A stretch of 10,219 bases of DNA from Chamaesiphon sp. (GTDB taxonomy: Bacteria > Cyanobacteriota > Cyanobacteriia > Cyanobacteriales > Chamaesiphonaceae): contig JAGVCD010000089.1 of the NCBI GenBank assembly GCA_020059425.1, forward strand, positions 1-10,219. Direction: 5' to 3'. Both the position numbers and the translations under genes were made by a program. The notes under the pieces were generated by a model. The model ran no database searches and had not been told where the DNA came from. It worked only from the letters and a program-made list of their open reading frames with translations. Shown in pieces: positions 719-9,838 of the stretch (positions within the stretch are counted from its first letter, which is position 1; every line of letters begins with the position of its first letter).

Positions 719-1411
719 ATGCTAAAAAATTCAACTTCGTTGCACTGGAATATATCCAAAGTAATCGCTATTGTTGGATTGTTCTTAGCGACAGCTTGTT
801 CTCAACAAAATACTAGTAGCAAAGACTCGGCAATTGCTGCCAACAAGAATATTGCTCAGATAGATCACAGTGATATGAATCATGGCGGGATGAATCACCA
901 TATGAATGTGGGGCCAGCAGATGCCAACTACGATTTGCGCTTTATTGATAGTATGATTCCTCATCATCAGGGTGCATTGGTCATGGCTCAAGAAGCAATT
1001 CAGAAATCCAAACGACCCGAACTAATTAAACTGGCGCAAGGAATTGTTGCTGAGCAGAAAAAAGAAATAGCTCAGATGCAGCAGTGGCGGAAGCAATGGT
1101 ATCATAAAGCGTCAGCGACACCGATCATGTGGCACGCGGCCATGAATGGTGAAATGCCCATGACAGCTGAATATAAACAGTCCATGATGATGAACATGTC
1201 GTTAGGTAAAGCTGATGCTGGGTTCGATCGCCGGTTTCTAGATGGCATGATTCCCCATCATCAAGGTGCGGTGACCATGGGACAAGATTTATTGCAAAAA
1301 TCCCAACGCCCTGAAATGAAAAAACTTGCTCAAAATATCATTAAGTCTCAACAGTCGGAAATCGATCGAATGACTAAATGGCGGCAAGAATGGTATGAGA
1401 ATAAAAAATAG
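719..1411 (+). CDS. Periplasmic DUF305 lipoprotein with two copper-binding-type domains (CopM-like)
   Basis: The 230-residue protein starts with a lipoprotein signal: hydrophobic residues 15-26, then a lipobox-like ATAC with Cys27 as the lipidated residue. Next comes a Ser/Asn-rich linker and a His/Met-rich stretch (residues 50-62, DHSDMNHGGMNHHM). Two DUF305 domains follow, at about 70-128 and 167-226. Each carries the signature MIPHHQGA (79-86 and 177-184) and ends in a W-R-x2-W-Y motif. The segment between them is rich in Met (residues 137-160). DUF305 is a helical ferritin-like fold; the Synechocystis member CopM binds copper outside the cytoplasm. The tandem domains and the position directly before a Cu-ATPase gene support a copper-buffering role, which is inferred. 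The only nearby Shine-Dalgarno-like bases (AGGA at 699-702) are rather far from the ATG. It is the first gene of the copper operon, 78 bp before copA. Confidence 0.9.
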   Translation: MLKNSTSLHWNISKVIAIVGLFLATACSQQNTSSKDSAIAANKNIAQIDHSDMNHGGMNHHMNVGPADANYDLRFIDSMIPHHQGALVMAQEAIQKSKRPELIKLAQGIVAEQKKEIAQMQQWRKQWYHKASATPIMWHAAMNGEMPMTAEYKQSMMMNMSLGKADAGFDRRFLDGMIPHHQGAVTMGQDLLQKSQRPEMKKLAQNIIKSQQSEIDRMTKWRQEWYENKK

Positions 1412-1489
1412 TTAGCTAATATTTGCCCAAAACCCCAAATACTGGCGAGACAAGTCTGACAGCTGGAGATCCCCATCATTAGCAAAAAT

Positions 1490-3757
1490 ATGGAAGAGCT
1501 TAATCTAAAACTCCAGGGAATGAGTTGTGCTTCCTGCGCTAACAGCATTGAGCGGGCAATTCTGAATGTGTCCGGGGTCGTACACTGCAACGTCAATTTC
1601 AGTGCTGATCAAGCAACTGTCCGCTACGATGCTACCAAAACTAATGGCCATCTCATCTGCCAAGCTGTTACCGATATTGGCTACGCAGCTCAAATTATCT
1701 CAGCAGATCTGACTATTAGCGATGATGATACTGAAACTAGGCAACAACGACGACACGATCGAAATCTGCAGCGCCGAGTTTTGATCGGTGCAGTCCTCAG
1801 TTTCCTGCTAGTGATGGGAACATTGAGCCATTTCAATCTTAAACTTCCGGCCTTCCTATCTGGACTCGAAAGCCCTTGGATACAACTATCTCTGGCTACC
1901 CCGGTACAGTTTTGGGTGGGTCAGGAATTCCATCGATCGGCCTGGAAGGCATTTCGCCACCGGACAGCTGATATGAATACCCTGATTTCACTGGGCACCA
2001 ATATCGCTTTTTTCTATTCTCTGTGGGTTACGATCGATCCCCACTATTTTCAAGCCCAAGGATTGTCAGCAGCAGTCTATTACGAAGCGTCAGCCATGAT
2101 TGTGACGTTGACGCTATTGGGGCGGTGGTTAGAAAATCGGGCGAAGGGTGCTACCTCCACAGCCATCCGGGCGTTGATTGGTTTACAGGCCAAAACCGCG
2201 CGGGTGTTGAGAGATGAAGTAGAAATTGATATGCCGATCGAGCAAGTGGCGATCGATGACGTTGTAATAGTGCGTCCTGGTGAAAAAATTCCAGTCGATG
2301 GTGAAGTCGTATCTGGATTTTCCACTATCGATGAATCGATGCTGACCGGTGAAAGTTTTCCTGTCACAAAACAAGTTGGCGATCAAGTGGTGGGAGCGAC
2401 TCTCAACAAGATGGGTAGCTTGCAGTTTCGAGCTACCAAGATCGGCAAAGATACCGCCCTCGCGCAGATCGTCAAATTAGTGCAGCAAGCTCAAAATTCT
2501 AAAGCGCCCATCCAAAAACTAGCCGATCAAATTACTGGCTGGTTCGTACCCGCGATTATCGCCATCGCCATTACTATTTTTGTTGTGTGGTTTCTAGTAA
2601 CAGGGAATTTTACGATATCAATCGTAGCGATGGTTAGTGTTTTGATTATCGCTTGTCCCTGTGCTTTAGGATTGGCTACGCCCACCTCGGTTACCGTCGG
2701 TATCGGCAAAGGAGCGGAACATGGCATTTTGATTAAAGGCGCGGAGAGCCTGGAACTAGCTCGCCAAATTCAGACGATCGTCTTAGACAAAACCGGTACA
2801 ATCACCCAGGGCAAGCCGGTAGTGACGGATACCTCTTCCTTACTAGATATTATGCCTACCAGCCCTCATATTGTAAGTTCTCTGATGTTATGGCGATCGA
2901 TCGGTGCTTTAGAAAGTAACTCCGAACATCCCTTAGCCGAAGCATTATGCCAATATGCCAAGATTCAAATGCCCGGTTCCTCATTTCCGCCAGTACAGAA
3001 ATTTGCAGCGATCGCTGGTAACGGGGTCAAAGGTATTGTAGAAGGCCAGCAAGTATGGATTGGAACCCAACGCTGGTTCCATGAGATGGGCATCAATTCA
3101 TCCCCATTCCAAAGACAGCAAGAAAGCTGGGAAGATGACGGAAAAACTGTGGTTTTCGTGGCGATCGATAGTCACTTACAAGCTGCCATCGCAATAGCTG
3201 ATACGGTCAAACCTACTTCTGCTCAAGCGATTCACACTCTACAGAAAATGGGAATAGAAGTAGTGATGCTAACTGGCGATAATCAGCGTACCGCCCAAGC
3301 AATTGCCGATCGAGTGGGGATTCAGGGCGTTCTAGCCGAAGTCCGCCCCGACCAAAAGGCTCAGACCATTCGGGCTTTGCAAACCCAATCAAAAAAAGTT
3401 GTCGCCATGGTCGGCGATGGTATTAATGATGCTCCAGCTCTAGCTCAGGCTGATGTGGGGATGGCGATCGGCACTGGCACTGATGTGGCAATCGCGGCTT
3501 CTGATATCACGCTAATTTCAGGAGATCTACAGGGTATCGTTACTGCCATTCGGCTCAGTCGCGCTACCATGCACAATATTCGGCAAAATCTCTTTTGGGC
3601 AATGGCTTATAATGTGGTGGGTATTCCAATCGCTGCTGGGATTCTTTTCCCCCTGACCGGCTGGTTATTAAATCCAGCAATTGCTGGAGCTGCTATGGCC
3701 TGTAGTTCGATTTCGGTGGTGCTTAATGCTCTGAGATTAAAGGAGTTAAAGCTATGA
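1490..3757 (+). CDS. copA: Cu(I)-exporting P1B-type ATPase
   Basis: The 755-residue protein has the full P1B-1 layout. An N-terminal heavy-metal-associated domain (1-70) carries GMSCASC, with Cys13 and Cys16. After a basic segment, transmembrane helices begin near residue 95. The actuator loop has TGES at 286-289. The metal-site helix has CPC at 389-391. The phosphorylation motif DKTGTIT starts at Asp433, the nucleotide-binding domain has SEHPLAEA with His480-Pro481, then MLTGDN and the hinge GDGINDAP at 642-649. The last two helices carry Tyr707-Asn708 and Met736-x2-Ser739-Ser740, the residues that mark Cu(I)/Ag(I) specificity rather than Zn/Cd. It would use ATP to move Cu(I) out of the cytoplasm, or into thylakoids if it is a PacS equivalent. 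The length is normal for the family and nothing is missing. It follows the DUF305 gene by 78 bp without a terminator and overlaps the next gene by ATGA. The choice between copA, pacS and ctaA orthology cannot be settled from sequence alone; export is favoured by the DUF305 neighbour. Confidence 0.95.
3008..3015. repeat. HIP1 octamer GCGATCGC
   Basis: A full copy of the cyanobacterial highly iterated palindrome lies inside copA. The inner CGATCG hexamer recurs more than 30 times in the window by eye. It is absent from 6545-7527 and from 9161-9838. HIP1 abundance is characteristic of many cyanobacteria and is the best taxonomic clue here. Confidence 0.85.
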
Positions 3758-4144: not shown

Positions 4145-6544
4145 TTAATTTGTCTCCACAAATCCGCCACTGCGAGCAAAGGCTTCTTCGGCAGGAGTAA
4201 AGTTAGGTAGCTGATCAACTAAGTTGGGGTTAAAAGAGTAAGTCTCGGAAAGAAAACCACCCAGCAGCACAGCTTCTTCCAATTCTCGAATATATTTTTG
4301 AGCAATGATACAAGTCTCGTTAATGCTTTCTTGATCACCAATCTCGATCAACTCAGCTAAGGTTGCCTTTACCCCGGCCAAACGGGAAGCTGGCTTGAGC
4401 GTACTATAAAGACGATGAATGCGATCGATATCAATGCTGATGTGTTGAAGGGCTTGGGCTCGGGCAAGTTCAGCATCGAGACTAGGCCAAAAGCGAGTAG
4501 TGTAGAGGGCTTGCTGGTCTTGGTGGTACCACTCCTCAGAGCGGGCAATGGAAGAAGAAACTGTATTGTGCAGTTTCCAGAAAAATAACCGCAAAGAGTC
4601 CCCATCGACAACGGTAGAAAGCTTGGCCTCCATGGATACCTCAAAATGAGTAGTACGCGGATCGCGTCCCAACAACAAATATTCCACTGGATACATCCCA
4701 ACTTCTTTGTTTTGTACCACATACATATTGAGATGATGGCGACAGTAAGGGCAGGGGTAGAGGGTGGCAAATCGCTGGAAAAATTCTTTAAAAAGTCCAG
4801 CGAGCCGGGTTTGCTCGGACGATGATTGCACACAAACAATCTCAGCAGTTGTGTGAAAAAAGCGCCAGACTGCCGGACCTAAGTAGTAGGGAAAACTCAC
4901 CCGCATCTGTTCATTTTTTACATCATGGCGCTGGACATGCAAGTCAATAAAAGTAACGTATTGTGAGAGCGCTCCCGATTCTCGCCCAAATTCTGCCCGT
5001 TCTCGTCGTTTTTGGACACCATTAAGATAGTGATAGGTGAGCTGCCAAGCCTGCTGGAGAATTAATTGCTGCGGCGGTGTACAGGTGGGGAAAAACTCGG
5101 CCACTTCTAAGCCATAGCTTCCAAATCCGCCTCCAGATTTGATAGATTCATACCATTGCTGCAGAGCGGTGGGGTCAGGGGTGGTTTGGGGTTGGATATC
5201 AGCAGCAGTACTCACACTGAAGGCGGCCAGTAATTTGGGCATAAAGTCTTCATACCAGTAAGCCACTGGCATCATGGCACCATCAATTTGCTCGGTAGCA
5301 TCTGTTAAAATCACGCGCTGCCATTGTTTCAGATAATCTTGGGGGGGTTCGTTTGCTGAGTGAGTTGGAACGGTAAATTCATTGTTTAGCTCCATTTTGC
5401 GTAGGCGATTCAGTTCATTAATCGCTAAAATGCCTTCAGTGACATCCCGAAAGCTCAAGCGTTTTTTGTTGAGGGTGATGGCAAATTCTACTCCGGCGGC
5501 AAACTTTTCCTTGACAGTTTCTGAAACTTGGCGTTTTTGGAGCATGACCGTTTCTTCAGTCAACATTGCTGGTGTTTTGGCTAGAGTTGGCCAGTTTTGA
5601 ATCCGGTGTTGAAGTCGATCGAACTCGGCAGTGATCGAATCTGTCACGGCATCTAAGACTGGATGGCAAGCTGGTTCTACGATACCTAAAGCTTTATATA
5701 GATCGATCGCCATCCGTACAAATTGGACAAAATCGGTAATAGTGTAGGGTAGGTTTTTGACCCGCAGATGAGTTTCATGATTGGCCGAAAAACTTTCCCG
5801 AAAGCAGCGATAAGCGGCTCCTTGAATCAAGCGAAAAAGGCCAATCTGCATTTGTAAGCGAGAGGTTCCTCGGGGTTTTTCCGGCTGAGGATGTTGGGCT
5901 AGCAGTTGTTGAAGTCGGAGTATTTCTGGATCTACTGCTGATCGATCGTTCGGGGGCATTGCCAATGGAACTAAGCCCAGATTATCGCTAGGCAAGACAT
6001 TGCTCGACTCCGTTGTCGAACTCGTCATCGCAACTGTCCCAAGCAGCGAGGCTGGCTGGAGAGTATTTTGATAACTGGCGATCGGTTCTTTTTCTTCTGG
6101 CACTAGAGTGCAAAATTCCGCAAAGTCAATCGCGGCATCCCCGTCATGATCTACCTCCTGAATCATGTCATTTAGCTCTTGTTCAGTCAGCCCAAACTGG
6201 TTCATCACACTACGCATTTCATTGACGGTGATGTGACCGCTATTATCTTCATCAAATACACTAAAAGCTAATTGCAAACGACTGTGCCGATCGCCCTGCT
6301 GAGCCAACATCAATGTCTGGAATTCAGCAAAATTAATCGTGCCCGATCGGTTAATATCCACTTCCTCGATCATTTCTTGTAGTTCGTTTTGACTAGGACT
6401 TTGACCCAGCGATTTTAGAACCAAACCCAACTCCTCAGCTGTAATACTACCACTGCCATCATTATCAAAAGTGGTAAATAATTGCCAGAGTTCTGCTACT
6501 TGGTCACGATTGAGTAAGTTGGTTGATGGTTGTTCAGAAATCAT
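4145..6544 (-). CDS. Calmodulin-like four-EF-hand protein fused to an Erv1/ALR-type sulfhydryl oxidase region
   Basis: The 799-residue protein has no signal peptide. Four EF-hand loops lie at 27-38, 63-74, 98-109 and 132-143. The first three are canonical (Asp1, Asp/Asn3, Ser5, Gly6, Glu12); the fourth has Ala instead of Gly at position 6 but keeps Asp1, Asp3, Asp5 and Glu12. Order and spacing are those of calmodulin, and the first pair is more than half identical by eye to calmodulin as I remember it. A Ser/Thr/Pro-rich linker (150-200) leads to a long helical region (200-545) that I cannot assign. Residues 553-665 resemble Erv1/ALR FAD-linked thiol oxidases: YYLGPAVWRFFH, LYPCPYCRHHL with the redox pair Cys598/Cys601, and FFWKLHNTV. 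The second structural disulfide of Erv1 is absent. Residues 686-799 are helical. The expected activity, disulfide formation with O2 under Ca2+ control, is inference from domains. It converges on the copper operon, with no other gene in its transcription unit. ATG at 6544 is the first in-frame ATG; no strong ribosome-binding site is seen. Confidence 0.85.
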   Translation of the reverse strand: MISEQPSTNLLNRDQVAELWQLFTTFDNDGSGSITAEELGLVLKSLGQSPSQNELQEMIEEVDINRSGTINFAEFQTLMLAQQGDRHSRLQLAFSVFDEDNSGHITVNEMRSVMNQFGLTEQELNDMIQEVDHDGDAAIDFAEFCTLVPEEKEPIASYQNTLQPASLLGTVAMTSSTTESSNVLPSDNLGLVPLAMPPNDRSAVDPEILRLQQLLAQHPQPEKPRGTSRLQMQIGLFRLIQGAAYRCFRESFSANHETHLRVKNLPYTITDFVQFVRMAIDLYKALGIVEPACHPVLDAVTDSITAEFDRLQHRIQNWPTLAKTPAMLTEETVMLQKRQVSETVKEKFAAGVEFAITLNKKRLSFRDVTEGILAINELNRLRKMELNNEFTVPTHSANEPPQDYLKQWQRVILTDATEQIDGAMMPVAYWYEDFMPKLLAAFSVSTAADIQPQTTPDPTALQQWYESIKSGGGFGSYGLEVAEFFPTCTPPQQLILQQAWQLTYHYLNGVQKRRERAEFGRESGALSQYVTFIDLHVQRHDVKNEQMRVSFPYYLGPAVWRFFHTTAEIVCVQSSSEQTRLAGLFKEFFQRFATLYPCPYCRHHLNMYVVQNKEVGMYPVEYLLLGRDPRTTHFEVSMEAKLSTVVDGDSLRLFFWKLHNTVSSSIARSEEWYHQDQQALYTTRFWPSLDAELARAQALQHISIDIDRIHRLYSTLKPASRLAGVKATLAELIEIGDQESINETCIIAQKYIRELEEAVLLGGFLSETYSFNPNLVDQLPNFTPAEEAFARSGGFVETN

Positions 6545-7527: not shown

Positions 7528-9111
7528 ATGTTTAGAGAATCAATCATCCTGCACTACCGCCAACGCATTGCCCAAGGCGATCGATCCAAACTCTCCAAAT
7601 CCGAACTAGTTGATCTCATCGCTGACTTCATCGAACAATTGACCGCCGCCAAATCCAAATCCCAGATTGAAACCCTCTGCATCCAAGAAATTGCCCTACT
7701 AGAAGAAGGCTACCCCCCACCCACCGTTGGTAAAGTCTATCTACCCACATACCGTAAAGCCCTGAAAAAAGCGATCGAAGATGGTCAATTACCTCTAACA
7801 AAAAAAACAAGCCACTCATACTCATACTCCAAAAGAACTGGCGAAACCGGCACCACCACCGAACACTTTGCCCTCACCTACCTAAAATATGACACCGCCA
7901 CCTACGGCGAATTTGCCGCCACTTCAGCCGATCGCAACAACACCAAACAAGATAATCTCCAGGCCGTAGAATTAGACGCATTTTTAGCAGTAGCTAACAA
8001 TTTAATACAGTCTGCTAATCCTTTCGATTTAGCTGCTGGCATCGCCGCTACCACTGGTCGGCGGTTTTCAGAAGTAGTCGCCAAAGGTTCTTTCACTCTG
8101 GCGGAAGATCCCTATTGGCTCTTATTTGAGGGCCAACTGAAAAAAAGAACCAAGGCCGATCGCTTTCTCACCCCCTGCCTGTTACCCGCTGCCACTGTCT
8201 TAGCCGCCCTAAAACGTTTTCGGGCACATCCCCGCATTATCCAGCTCGCCCAAGGTACACCAGACGAACTGAATCGCAGTTTGGCTGACTCGGTAAAGCG
8301 ATCGGTAAAAACTAATTTTGGCGAGATTATTCCCATCTTGCCTGGCGAGAGAGCTGTTTCTGTCCATAATTTGCGTGGTGTTTATGCCCAGGTTTGCAAT
8401 TACTATTTTTGTCCACCCGATCGCACGACTGCTCGTTTCTTGCAAGAATGCCTCGGTCACGTTATTTCTAAAGAAGAACTAAAGAGATCGAACTCTTCAG
8501 CCACGCAATATTATTTTCACTACTATTTGGTAGATCAACTCGGTCATCACCTAGCGGCTAAGGGTGTGCTGCTAGGGCTAGAAGAGTCGGTGGAAGTCGC
8601 TTCGGAACCTGATGCTAATACTGTTGAGCAAAATGATGATGATCCGATCGCTGTTCTGCAGGCTGAAATTGGTCGGATGTGGACGCGGGTGAACCAGCCC
8701 TCTGCAGCCATAGTAGATTTAGCTGAAAAACTAGCAACAGCTAACAATCGGATTGCTGTTCTGGAATCAGCTCTGCAGGATACTCACCGTCGCATTGACC
8801 AACTCTTAACCATCGTTCAGCCACAGATTCCGCGCAATTCTAAGCAACGAACTCCGGCTATTTCTAAAATTTTGATGGCGATCGATGCCATCTATCTGTG
8901 GAACTTCCAGCAACCGCAAAAGTTTGCCGTCTCCCAAACCCTGCTACTCAAAGCCACTGGTTGCAATCGTCCGGCTATTCAACGGGTGTTAGTCGATTTA
9001 GCAGAAGAGATCGATCGACATCATGCTCAATTTTCGATCTCGCCACGCGGTCAAGCCAGAAACCTGGACGCGGTTCTGCAATTTATCAAAGAGAACATCA
9101 ACGATATTTAG
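7528..9111 (+). CDS. Telomere-resolvase-like (protelomerase family) tyrosine recombinase
   Basis: The 527-residue protein has an N-terminal helical region (1-140) and a catalytic domain of the tyrosine recombinase/telomere resolvase fold (about 145-345). Candidate active-site residues are Arg179 in TTGRRFSEV, Lys205 or Lys206 in GQLKKRTK, His280 and Arg283 in HNLRGVYA, His311 in CLGH, and the nucleophile Tyr329 in TQYYFHYY (T-x2-Y-x-H). After an acidic stretch (356-373), a coiled-coil-like segment follows (374-430), then a C-terminal tail (440-527) that includes a helix-turn-helix-like part, SQTLLLKATGCNRPAIQRVL. Characterised relatives (TelN, TelK, ResT, TelA) cut and reseal palindromic telomeres into hairpins; cyanobacterial homologues are named only by homology. 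It may instead be a recombinase of a mobile element. Nothing ribosome-binding-like precedes the ATG, which is the first in frame. It carries about nine CGATCG hexamers, so it matches host composition. A hairpin and a same-strand gene follow closely. Confidence 0.78.
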   Translation: MFRESIILHYRQRIAQGDRSKLSKSELVDLIADFIEQLTAAKSKSQIETLCIQEIALLEEGYPPPTVGKVYLPTYRKALKKAIEDGQLPLTKKTSHSYSYSKRTGETGTTTEHFALTYLKYDTATYGEFAATSADRNNTKQDNLQAVELDAFLAVANNLIQSANPFDLAAGIAATTGRRFSEVVAKGSFTLAEDPYWLLFEGQLKKRTKADRFLTPCLLPAATVLAALKRFRAHPRIIQLAQGTPDELNRSLADSVKRSVKTNFGEIIPILPGERAVSVHNLRGVYAQVCNYYFCPPDRTTARFLQECLGHVISKEELKRSNSSATQYYFHYYLVDQLGHHLAAKGVLLGLEESVEVASEPDANTVEQNDDDPIAVLQAEIGRMWTRVNQPSAAIVDLAEKLATANNRIAVLESALQDTHRRIDQLLTIVQPQIPRNSKQRTPAISKILMAIDAIYLWNFQQPQKFAVSQTLLLKATGCNRPAIQRVLVDLAEEIDRHHAQFSISPRGQARNLDAVLQFIKENINDI

Positions 9112-9138: not shown

Positions 9139-9181
9139 AATTGGGAATACTTTCACTATATTGATTAGTGTTTTGTTGCTC

Positions 9182-9838
9182 ATGAACAATTCCCAACAAG
9201 CTTTGTTCTTATTAGACATTGGAGAAGCAACTTACTCTGAGCTAGATTGTCTTGAAAATTTGTTGAATGGAGTCGAAAGTCCGGTAGATTATTGGTCTCT
9301 CATTCAACCAGATCATCTGCGCCAGATTATTAGTAATGCCGAAAAGCGATTGTTAAGTATTTGTTATCAATATATAACCCAAAGATTTAATTACTTAACT
9401 AGAATCAGTGCGAGACCGATGACAAGTCAGTTACAGCCTTCCTTAAAAATGATGTCTAAAGTAAAACGATTTATTGATGGTGATATTGATATAATTGGCA
9501 AGGAGTTCAGTCACTACGAATATAGTTATCAATTATTTATTAATTCTAAGCGGAAATACGAAGAATGTCTAATTCAAGTACATGGTGATCAAACTAATCC
9601 GGCCACAATCGTACAATCCTCAGCAACATTAATAAATCACAGGCGAAGTCTGGCGACGCTAAATCTAGCGCAGCTAGACTTTGAAAAACGAAATCAACAG
9701 CTCAATCAGCATTTCGCTAAAATTTTGCAAAAAACAGCTATTCATTTAGAGGGCATGGAGGAGCGCACTTTTCAGGCTATCTCCAGGTATGTAGAGAGGT
9801 TAGAGTCTGATGAGTTGGGGTTTTTAGGTTTAGACTGA
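9182..9838 (+). CDS. Uncharacterised helical protein downstream of the resolvase-like gene
   Basis: The 218-residue protein is not recognised. It has no signal peptide or membrane helix and looks almost entirely alpha-helical, with a charged, coiled-coil-prone stretch around residues 150-190 (for example LDFEKRNQQLNQHFAKIL) and an acidic end (RLESDELGFLGLD). There are no Cys-rich, zinc-finger or nucleotide-binding motifs. The ATG at 9182 is preferred; an in-frame TTG at 9161 would add seven residues, MISVLLL, and neither has a good Shine-Dalgarno. The gene lies 70 bp behind the resolvase-like gene on the same strand, so the two may be cotranscribed. It is AT-richer than its neighbours and contains no CGATCG hexamer, which hints at later acquisition, although its short length makes that weak. 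It could be an accessory factor of the recombinase; this is inferred only from position. Confidence 0.7.
   Translation: MNNSQQALFLLDIGEATYSELDCLENLLNGVESPVDYWSLIQPDHLRQIISNAEKRLLSICYQYITQRFNYLTRISARPMTSQLQPSLKMMSKVKRFIDGDIDIIGKEFSHYEYSYQLFINSKRKYEECLIQVHGDQTNPATIVQSSATLINHRRSLATLNLAQLDFEKRNQQLNQHFAKILQKTAIHLEGMEERTFQAISRYVERLESDELGFLGLD

Follow-up and report, generated by a model that had tools for sequence, protein, structure and literature searches.

The window, which is the whole 10,219-nucleotide stretch of Chamaesiphon sp. DNA analysed here, carries on its minus strand a gene for a 799-residue protein with a calmodulin-like module at its N-terminus and an Erv1/ALR-type domain toward its C-terminus. 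The gene and its parts are as follows.

4145..6544, minus strand: whole gene, 799 codons plus stop, ATG start; calmodulin-like module, linker, helical middle region, Erv1/ALR domain and C-terminal helices
6095..6517, minus strand: calmodulin-like module with four EF-hands, residues 10-150 (Pfam PF13499, 1.6e-28)
6431..6466, minus strand: EF-hand loop 1, residues 27-38, canonical, ligand positions conserved
6323..6358, minus strand: EF-hand loop 2, residues 63-74, canonical, ligand positions conserved
6218..6253, minus strand: EF-hand loop 3, residues 98-109, canonical, ligand positions conserved
6116..6151, minus strand: EF-hand loop 4, residues 132-143, canonical, ligand positions conserved
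5870..6094, minus strand: variable linker, residues 151-225, with helix 206-216 at its end and an LLAQHP-type motif
4910..5869, minus strand: middle region, mostly helical, residues 226-545, with many invariant polar residues
4529..4876, minus strand: Erv1/ALR-type domain, residues 557-672; PF04777 above cut-off, ERV1 structures matched by profile
4742..4753, minus strand: redox motif C598-P-Y-C601, kept in 122/122 aligned copies
4559..4579, minus strand: W656-K-L-H659-N660-T-V662, presumed counterpart of the Erv HNxVN motif, the final N being S663 here
4148..4477, minus strand: C-terminal helical segment, residues 690-799, with no family of its own

Other genes of the window lie on either side. 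The plus strand, which converges with the fusion gene, encodes a DUF305 protein at 719-3757 and, after it, a P-type ATPase that carries a heavy-metal-associated domain. A telomere resolvase with the ResT/TelK catalytic domain (PF16684, E=1.4e-49) is encoded at 7528-9111 (plus strand) and is possibly a hairpin-telomere enzyme, judging by this domain. It adjoins an ORF of 225 codons at 9161-9838 (plus strand), for which no family scored above its cut-off.

The chain appeared soluble. No hydrophobic stretch was seen at the N-terminus, and across all 799 residues the Kyte-Doolittle mean over 19 residues peaked at 1.04; therefore neither a membrane segment nor a signal peptide was apparent, as judged by hydrophobicity rather than by a dedicated predictor. 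This agrees with the first-pass annotation of the DNA, which had proposed a cytoplasmic enzyme with no signal peptide. With the whole protein, every NCBIfam match fell under its cut-off. The best one covered the EF portion of a model for an effector family, with 64.5 bits where the cut-off is 120; we take this to reflect shared EF-hands and nothing more.

The N-terminal module was calmodulin-like. Pfam assigned EF-hand_7 with E=1.6e-28 together with four EF-hand_1 stretches, and calmodulins matched residues ~10-148, the best single chain with E=1.6e-35 in phmmer. In a fold search with the full-length model, the best 50 rows consisted only of calmodulins and calmodulin-based constructs, 39-47% identical to the query. 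The four loops predicted earlier are in tandem, their starts separated by 36, 35 and 34 residues, and all passed the canonical-ligand test. We examined their conservation among the closer relatives, using 41 sequences with less than 85% identity that were reduced from 117 of the matches listed plus the query. The mean frequency of the major residue was 0.94 at the calcium-ligand positions, compared with 0.82 at the other positions of the EF module, and Asp, Asn, Ser or Glu filled 99% of the ligand-position cells. The module is a putative binder of Ca2+ that would change its conformation on binding, and calcium control is probably real in the window's copy.

The Erv1/ALR assignment of the C-terminal part was borne out at the level of sequence. 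The Evr1_Alr model PF04777 scored 40.5 bits with the whole protein (cut-off 27.6, E=3.7e-10), with its best stretch at residues 558-613 corresponding to profile positions 2-54 of 93, and 46.8 bits with the isolated domain. The isolated domains of the relatives matched the same model in 25/25 cases at E<=1, and in four of the family (P0213, P0215, L054 and L055) the match extended to profile position 82 of 93, beyond the HNxV motif. A profile built from isolated domains found the solved proteins ERV1 (2.7e-6), Erv1p (2hj3, 3.7e-6), Erv2 (1e-4) and ALR (6.6e-4). These matches, like the Pfam match in the window's protein, covered the CxxC half, and the HNxV half aligned with 2hj3 only insignificantly. 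The Pfam scores of the EF-hand and Evr1_Alr models lie far beyond chance.

The window's protein carries W560-x3-H564, YPC598PYC601 and W656-x2-H659-N660-x-V662. We take W-x3-H and HN-x-V to be the flavin motifs of Erv enzymes. Among 12 positions checked in the Erv region, W560, H564, Y596, C598, C601, H604, H659, N660, V662, R668 and W672 were invariant in 122/122 aligned copies. The twelfth, S663, was Ser in 120/122 and Asn in 2/122; at this position Erv enzymes usually carry the last Asn of HNxVN. The domain is predicted to bind FAD and to transfer electrons from thiols to O2. Some Erv enzymes bear a shuttle disulfide of their own, a feature of a subtype that does not define the family. Here only C598 and C601 were invariant and no second invariant Cys pair was present in the 122 aligned copies, the next most conserved Cys being C488 (104/122). 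With regard to the four-helix FAD-binding fold of ALR, whose absence the first-pass annotation had named as refuting its reading, a model of the core (pLDDT 86.1, pTM 0.89) showed helices at 557-571, 575-595 and 648-666, with the helix following CxxC broken. Foldseek with this model returned no Erv chain among 33 rows and nothing below E=1.2, and VIA-align gave none in the best 50 of 212 rows, a comparison in which only model residues 421-567 were well tested.

The middle region, residues 226-545, had been left without a family in the first reading of the sequence, and the searches agreed. Pfam found no match in the window's copy. Over the middle regions of 27 members there were only weak, scattered matches, any one shared by at most 7 and the best with E 0.0014, the exception being PF04777 in the tail of P0270. 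Residues 205-799 had no NCBIfam match, and the best match of the middle region to PDB sequences had E=0.55. No known fold was found for it either; since model residues outside 421-567 were little tested, this absence is not evidence of a new fold. We also considered that the region might be a degenerate second Erv copy, and the profile comparison gave this a probability of 0.2%. In the cyanobacterial-type copies, conservation was 0.86 in the middle region, 0.84 in the EF module and 0.91 in the Erv domain. Residues 226-264 and 505-544 were about as conserved as the Erv site, and the region contains invariant Gln, Arg, His, Trp, Tyr, Lys, Glu and Asp residues. We found no free-standing middle region: 64 matches to the region alone looked mostly like pieces of family members, as judged by length, contig and Pfam content, with six sequences read. 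Two distant relatives, P0269 and P0270, keep the middle region at 31-33% identity and lack an N-terminal EF-hand. P0269 has an EF-like loop inside the middle region. P0270 continues into an Erv domain but ends shortly after CPYC, as could happen where an intron has interrupted the gene model. The two are possibly eukaryotic split genes.

The linker, residues 150-225, is the least conserved part of the chain (0.549), and its helix 206-216 was present in both models. An LLAQHP-type motif in the linker occurred in 102/115 copies with at least four EF loops and in 0/52 with 0-1 loop. For this count, 291 proteins were taken, 73 under 700 residues and 45 in which the core start was not found were dropped, and EF loops were identified by regular expression. 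The linker helix might be an intramolecular target of the calcium-loaded module, but we regard this only as a lead: each group corresponds largely to a clade of its own, and L024, L036 and L052 have 3-4 canonical loops yet lack the motif.

The architecture is no one-off. It represents a widespread bacterial family that is already annotated automatically, under database names such as 'EF-hand domain-containing protein', 'thiol oxidase', 'ERV1/ALR-related protein' and 'Erv1/Alr family FAD-linked sulfhydryl oxidase'. The name 'histidine kinase' attached to some relatives found no support here. Residues 200-799 as the query retrieved 618 proteins; among the matches listed, 120/120 had PF04777 and 118/120 an EF-hand model. 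A Gemmobacter plasmid copy, 38% identical to the window's protein, retrieved 118 proteins, 114 with PF04777 and most of 730-825 residues, and in most of these relatives EF-hand models no longer score. A genome scan yielded 52 loci. Judged by record title, 46 were cyanobacterial and 6, all of them from MAGs, proteobacterial; these relatives point to a cyanobacterium as the host of the window's gene. PF04777 was present in 12/388 genomes from the class of a Nostocales cyanobacterium (L006) and in 1/398 from the phylum of an alphaproteobacterial MAG (L042), the one being L042's own, and it was absent from 14/14 control genomes. Because PF04777 is sparse across the sampled genomes, the family is patchy and rare, consistent with the earlier statement that Erv1 domains are rare in bacteria. 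The loci kept from the class and phylum searches all matched the query (11/11), three of them (L059, L063 and L064) lying on contigs already in the genome scan, and L061 matching only in two pieces. At L061:1240-2304 (minus strand), one ORF lacks residues ~168-531 and the C-terminal part lies in a separate ORF; it is probably a decayed copy. Searches for a phage or viral origin gave no candidate: the phage collection contained no match, and none of 24 pattern matches in viral contigs was a relative by tblastn.

The calcium sites varied widely over the family. Among the 122 aligned copies, four canonical loops were present in 26, three in 3, two in 6, one in 62 and none in 25. EF4 was the sole canonical loop in 61 of the 62 single-loop copies. 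(Counts by regular expression differ slightly from the aligned counts, for example in L042 and L047, and the aligned counts are preferred.) The Erv motif residues were nevertheless kept in the 87/122 copies with 0-1 canonical loop. Calcium control is therefore no general property of the enzyme, and the intact motifs of the 61 copies with EF4 only and the 25 with no canonical loop suggest that calcium is dispensable for the core. The calcium control proposed in the first-pass annotation is qualified to this extent. It is probably a lineage-specific layer over a thiol-oxidase core: likely in copies with intact loops, and diminished or missing in the others.

We built a tree from 51 core sequences; another 18 of the 69 selected had no core start that could be located and were omitted. 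One clade, which includes the window's protein, consists mostly of EF-intact copies. A second contains 26 copies with 0-1 canonical loop and preserved enzyme motifs; where named, these come from Gemmobacter, Jannaschia and Rhizobium, and the clade includes copies from four cyanobacterial-class genomes of 2.3-2.8 Mb (L054, L055, L060 and L062). The grouping of these four with a low-EF, partly alphaproteobacterial clade suggests gene transfer. The EF-intact clade also took in three sequences with partly lost loops, of proteobacterial type or unnamed, and the tree gave L042 and L045 no firm position. Distances over the EF module and over the core correlated closely, with Mantel r of 0.90 for 29 copies with 3-4 loops, 0.90 for the other 93 and 0.91 for all 122; permutations as high as observed numbered 0/2000 in each of the three sets. 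From this correlation it follows that the modules were inherited together, and by these sequence distances the fusion is old and passed on as a unit. Where the EF loops have decayed, that branch has probably given up some or all of its calcium control, leaving an enzyme independent of calcium; the root that sets this polarity rests on two very long branches and is unsure.

The gene neighbourhood offered little guidance to function. We clustered 528 neighbouring ORFs of at least 80 codons from 54 loci including the window, many of the other 53 having short flanks. No widely conserved neighbour emerged across the 54 loci. The largest two clusters covered 9 loci each, of Nostoc or of Nostoc plus Microcoleus/Tychonema type. 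Six loci of Microcoleus/Tychonema type (L003, L021, L031, L034, L038 and L050) have one neighbour in common, which we assume to resemble a metal-sensing repressor. A functional link to the adjacent copper operon had been suggested for the window. It did not hold: the 7 ORFs that surround the gene in the window, which include those for the DUF305 protein, the P-type ATPase and the telomere resolvase, had no counterpart among the neighbours in the other 53 loci. The fusion gene seems to stand alone, and thus no operon partner names the substrate.

Compared with the Erv1/ALR proteins of known structure (4e0h, 1jr8, 2hj3 and 1oqc), the window's protein shares W-x3-H, YPCxxC, HNxV and profile homology. 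However, the solved chains found are 106-189 residues long, whereas the domain in the window's protein sits in a 799-residue chain behind the calmodulin-like module and the middle region. The family also differs in lacking a second invariant Cys pair and in having Ser for the last Asn of HNxVN. QSOX is a thioredoxin-Erv fusion and likewise places an Erv domain after a helical region in a long multidomain chain. The window's protein, in contrast, has no thioredoxin match at E<=1, and its middle region does not resemble a degenerate Erv domain.

NOX5 provides a regulatory parallel. NOX5 enzymes, including the cyanobacterial csNOX5, are described in the covered part of PMC7317449 as having a calmodulin-like EF domain; once loaded with Ca2+, the C-lobe of this domain attaches to the dehydrogenase domain and turns on the formation of ROS. 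The similarities, so far as that part of the source goes, are that an O2-reducing flavin enzyme (predicted in our case) carries a calmodulin-like EF module at its N-terminus and that both occur in cyanobacteria. Unlike NOX5, which has transmembrane and dehydrogenase domains in the same account, the window's protein has no apparent membrane segment, Pfam gave it neither domain at E<=1, and its electrons would come from thiols. Bacterial calmodulin-like modules, cyanobacterial ones included, are reported fused to heme oxygenase, NOS, NADPH oxidase, thioredoxin, cytochrome and other domains (PMC7016017). These fusions resemble the window's protein in joining such a module to a redox domain, and the main text of that paper contains none of the terms erv1, evr1, thiol or sulfhydryl. 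According to PMC10598087, PF04777 occurs in Nostocales, Oscillatoriophycideae, Rhizobiales and Rhodobacterales; the term 'EF-hand' is absent from its main text, and the covered text of PMC10574481 does not mention erv1, thiol or sulfhydryl. Thiol oxidase genes occur in nearly all eukaryotic phytoplankton, according to the portion of PMC10128935 consulted. In the literature covered, which comprised titles and the starts of abstracts and included few subscription papers, we found no description of an EF-hand/calmodulin-Erv1 fusion. Nor did the literature on EF-hand or calmodulin together with Erv1, sulfhydryl oxidase or thiol oxidase contain a study of a cytoplasmic bacterial Erv enzyme.

Taken together, we predict that the window's protein is a soluble, cytoplasmic, Ca2+-gated flavin thiol oxidase, and we give this reading a probability of roughly 55%. 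Its support comes from the Erv homology, the invariant motifs, the conserved calcium ligands, the co-inheritance of EF module and core, and the NOX5 precedent. In copies like the window's, Ca2+ would fill the four EF-hands. By analogy with NOX5, the loaded module might then switch the Erv site, in whichever direction, by docking either on the linker helix or on the helices of the middle region. C598 and C601 would take electrons from a thiol, perhaps glutathione or a docked protein, and hand them on to FAD. The helices with W-x3-H and HN-x-V would hold this FAD, which would reduce O2 to H2O2. With a disulfide and H2O2 as its products, the enzyme would turn a Ca2+ transient into a redox signal. 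Substrate choice and the docking surface most likely reside in the middle region. The more specific proposal that these 320 residues are a new domain, on which the calmodulin module docks and which also binds a particular thiol substrate of the Ca2+-gated oxidase, is tentative and on balance doubtful.

Several observations weigh against the predicted oxidase. The cytoplasm is normally reducing, an unusual site for a disulfide maker. The gating is called into question by the copies with EF4 only or no canonical loop that keep their Erv motifs. These copies would be expected if the oxidase were constitutive and the EF module served folding or docking, perhaps binding Ca2+ but switching nothing, so that its decay elsewhere was neutral. 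We consider such an enzyme unlikely: the window's relatives keep all four loops with ligands more conserved than the neighbouring residues, and the retention of EF4 alone in half of the aligned copies looks like selection on one calcium site. The case for oxidase activity itself is weakened by the missing second invariant Cys pair, HNxVS in place of HNxVN and the lack of a widely conserved gene partner. The matches to solved Erv proteins lie mainly in the CxxC half, Erv structures are missing from the Foldseek rows, and the model breaks the helix that follows CxxC. The absent shuttle pair, the altered motif, the broken helix and the fold search would also suit a redox sensor. In that reading FAD or a metal sits in the Erv-like site, and CxxC reports the redox state to the middle region with little O2 turnover. 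The near-complete invariance of the Erv region fits a kept catalytic site instead, and we judge a sensor to be still less probable than a constitutive oxidase. Least probable of all is that catalysis belongs to the middle region, which would then be a helical enzyme or cofactor domain of a new kind whose redox state the Erv site only maintains or reads. Its conserved ends and invariant polar residues, and its persistence in P0269 and P0270, would favour such a role. However, no free-standing copy exists among the matches, and no known active-site signature was recognised in it.

How bacteria use Ca2+ signals is described as poorly understood in the part of PMC9132961 consulted. In this family, one chain pairs bacterial Ca2+ sensing with a predicted cytoplasmic Erv enzyme, and its calcium-intact and calcium-decayed relatives permit a direct comparison. 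The family also exposes a conserved middle region with no family assignment. It could connect cyanobacterial Ca2+ transients to thiol and peroxide signals, in parallel to NOX5. If the predicted Ca2+-gated oxidase is correct, it would be a one-protein bacterial switch from Ca2+ to H2O2 and disulfide, with relatives bearing 4, 3, 2, 1 and 0 canonical sites in which the switch would have been lost and the enzyme kept.
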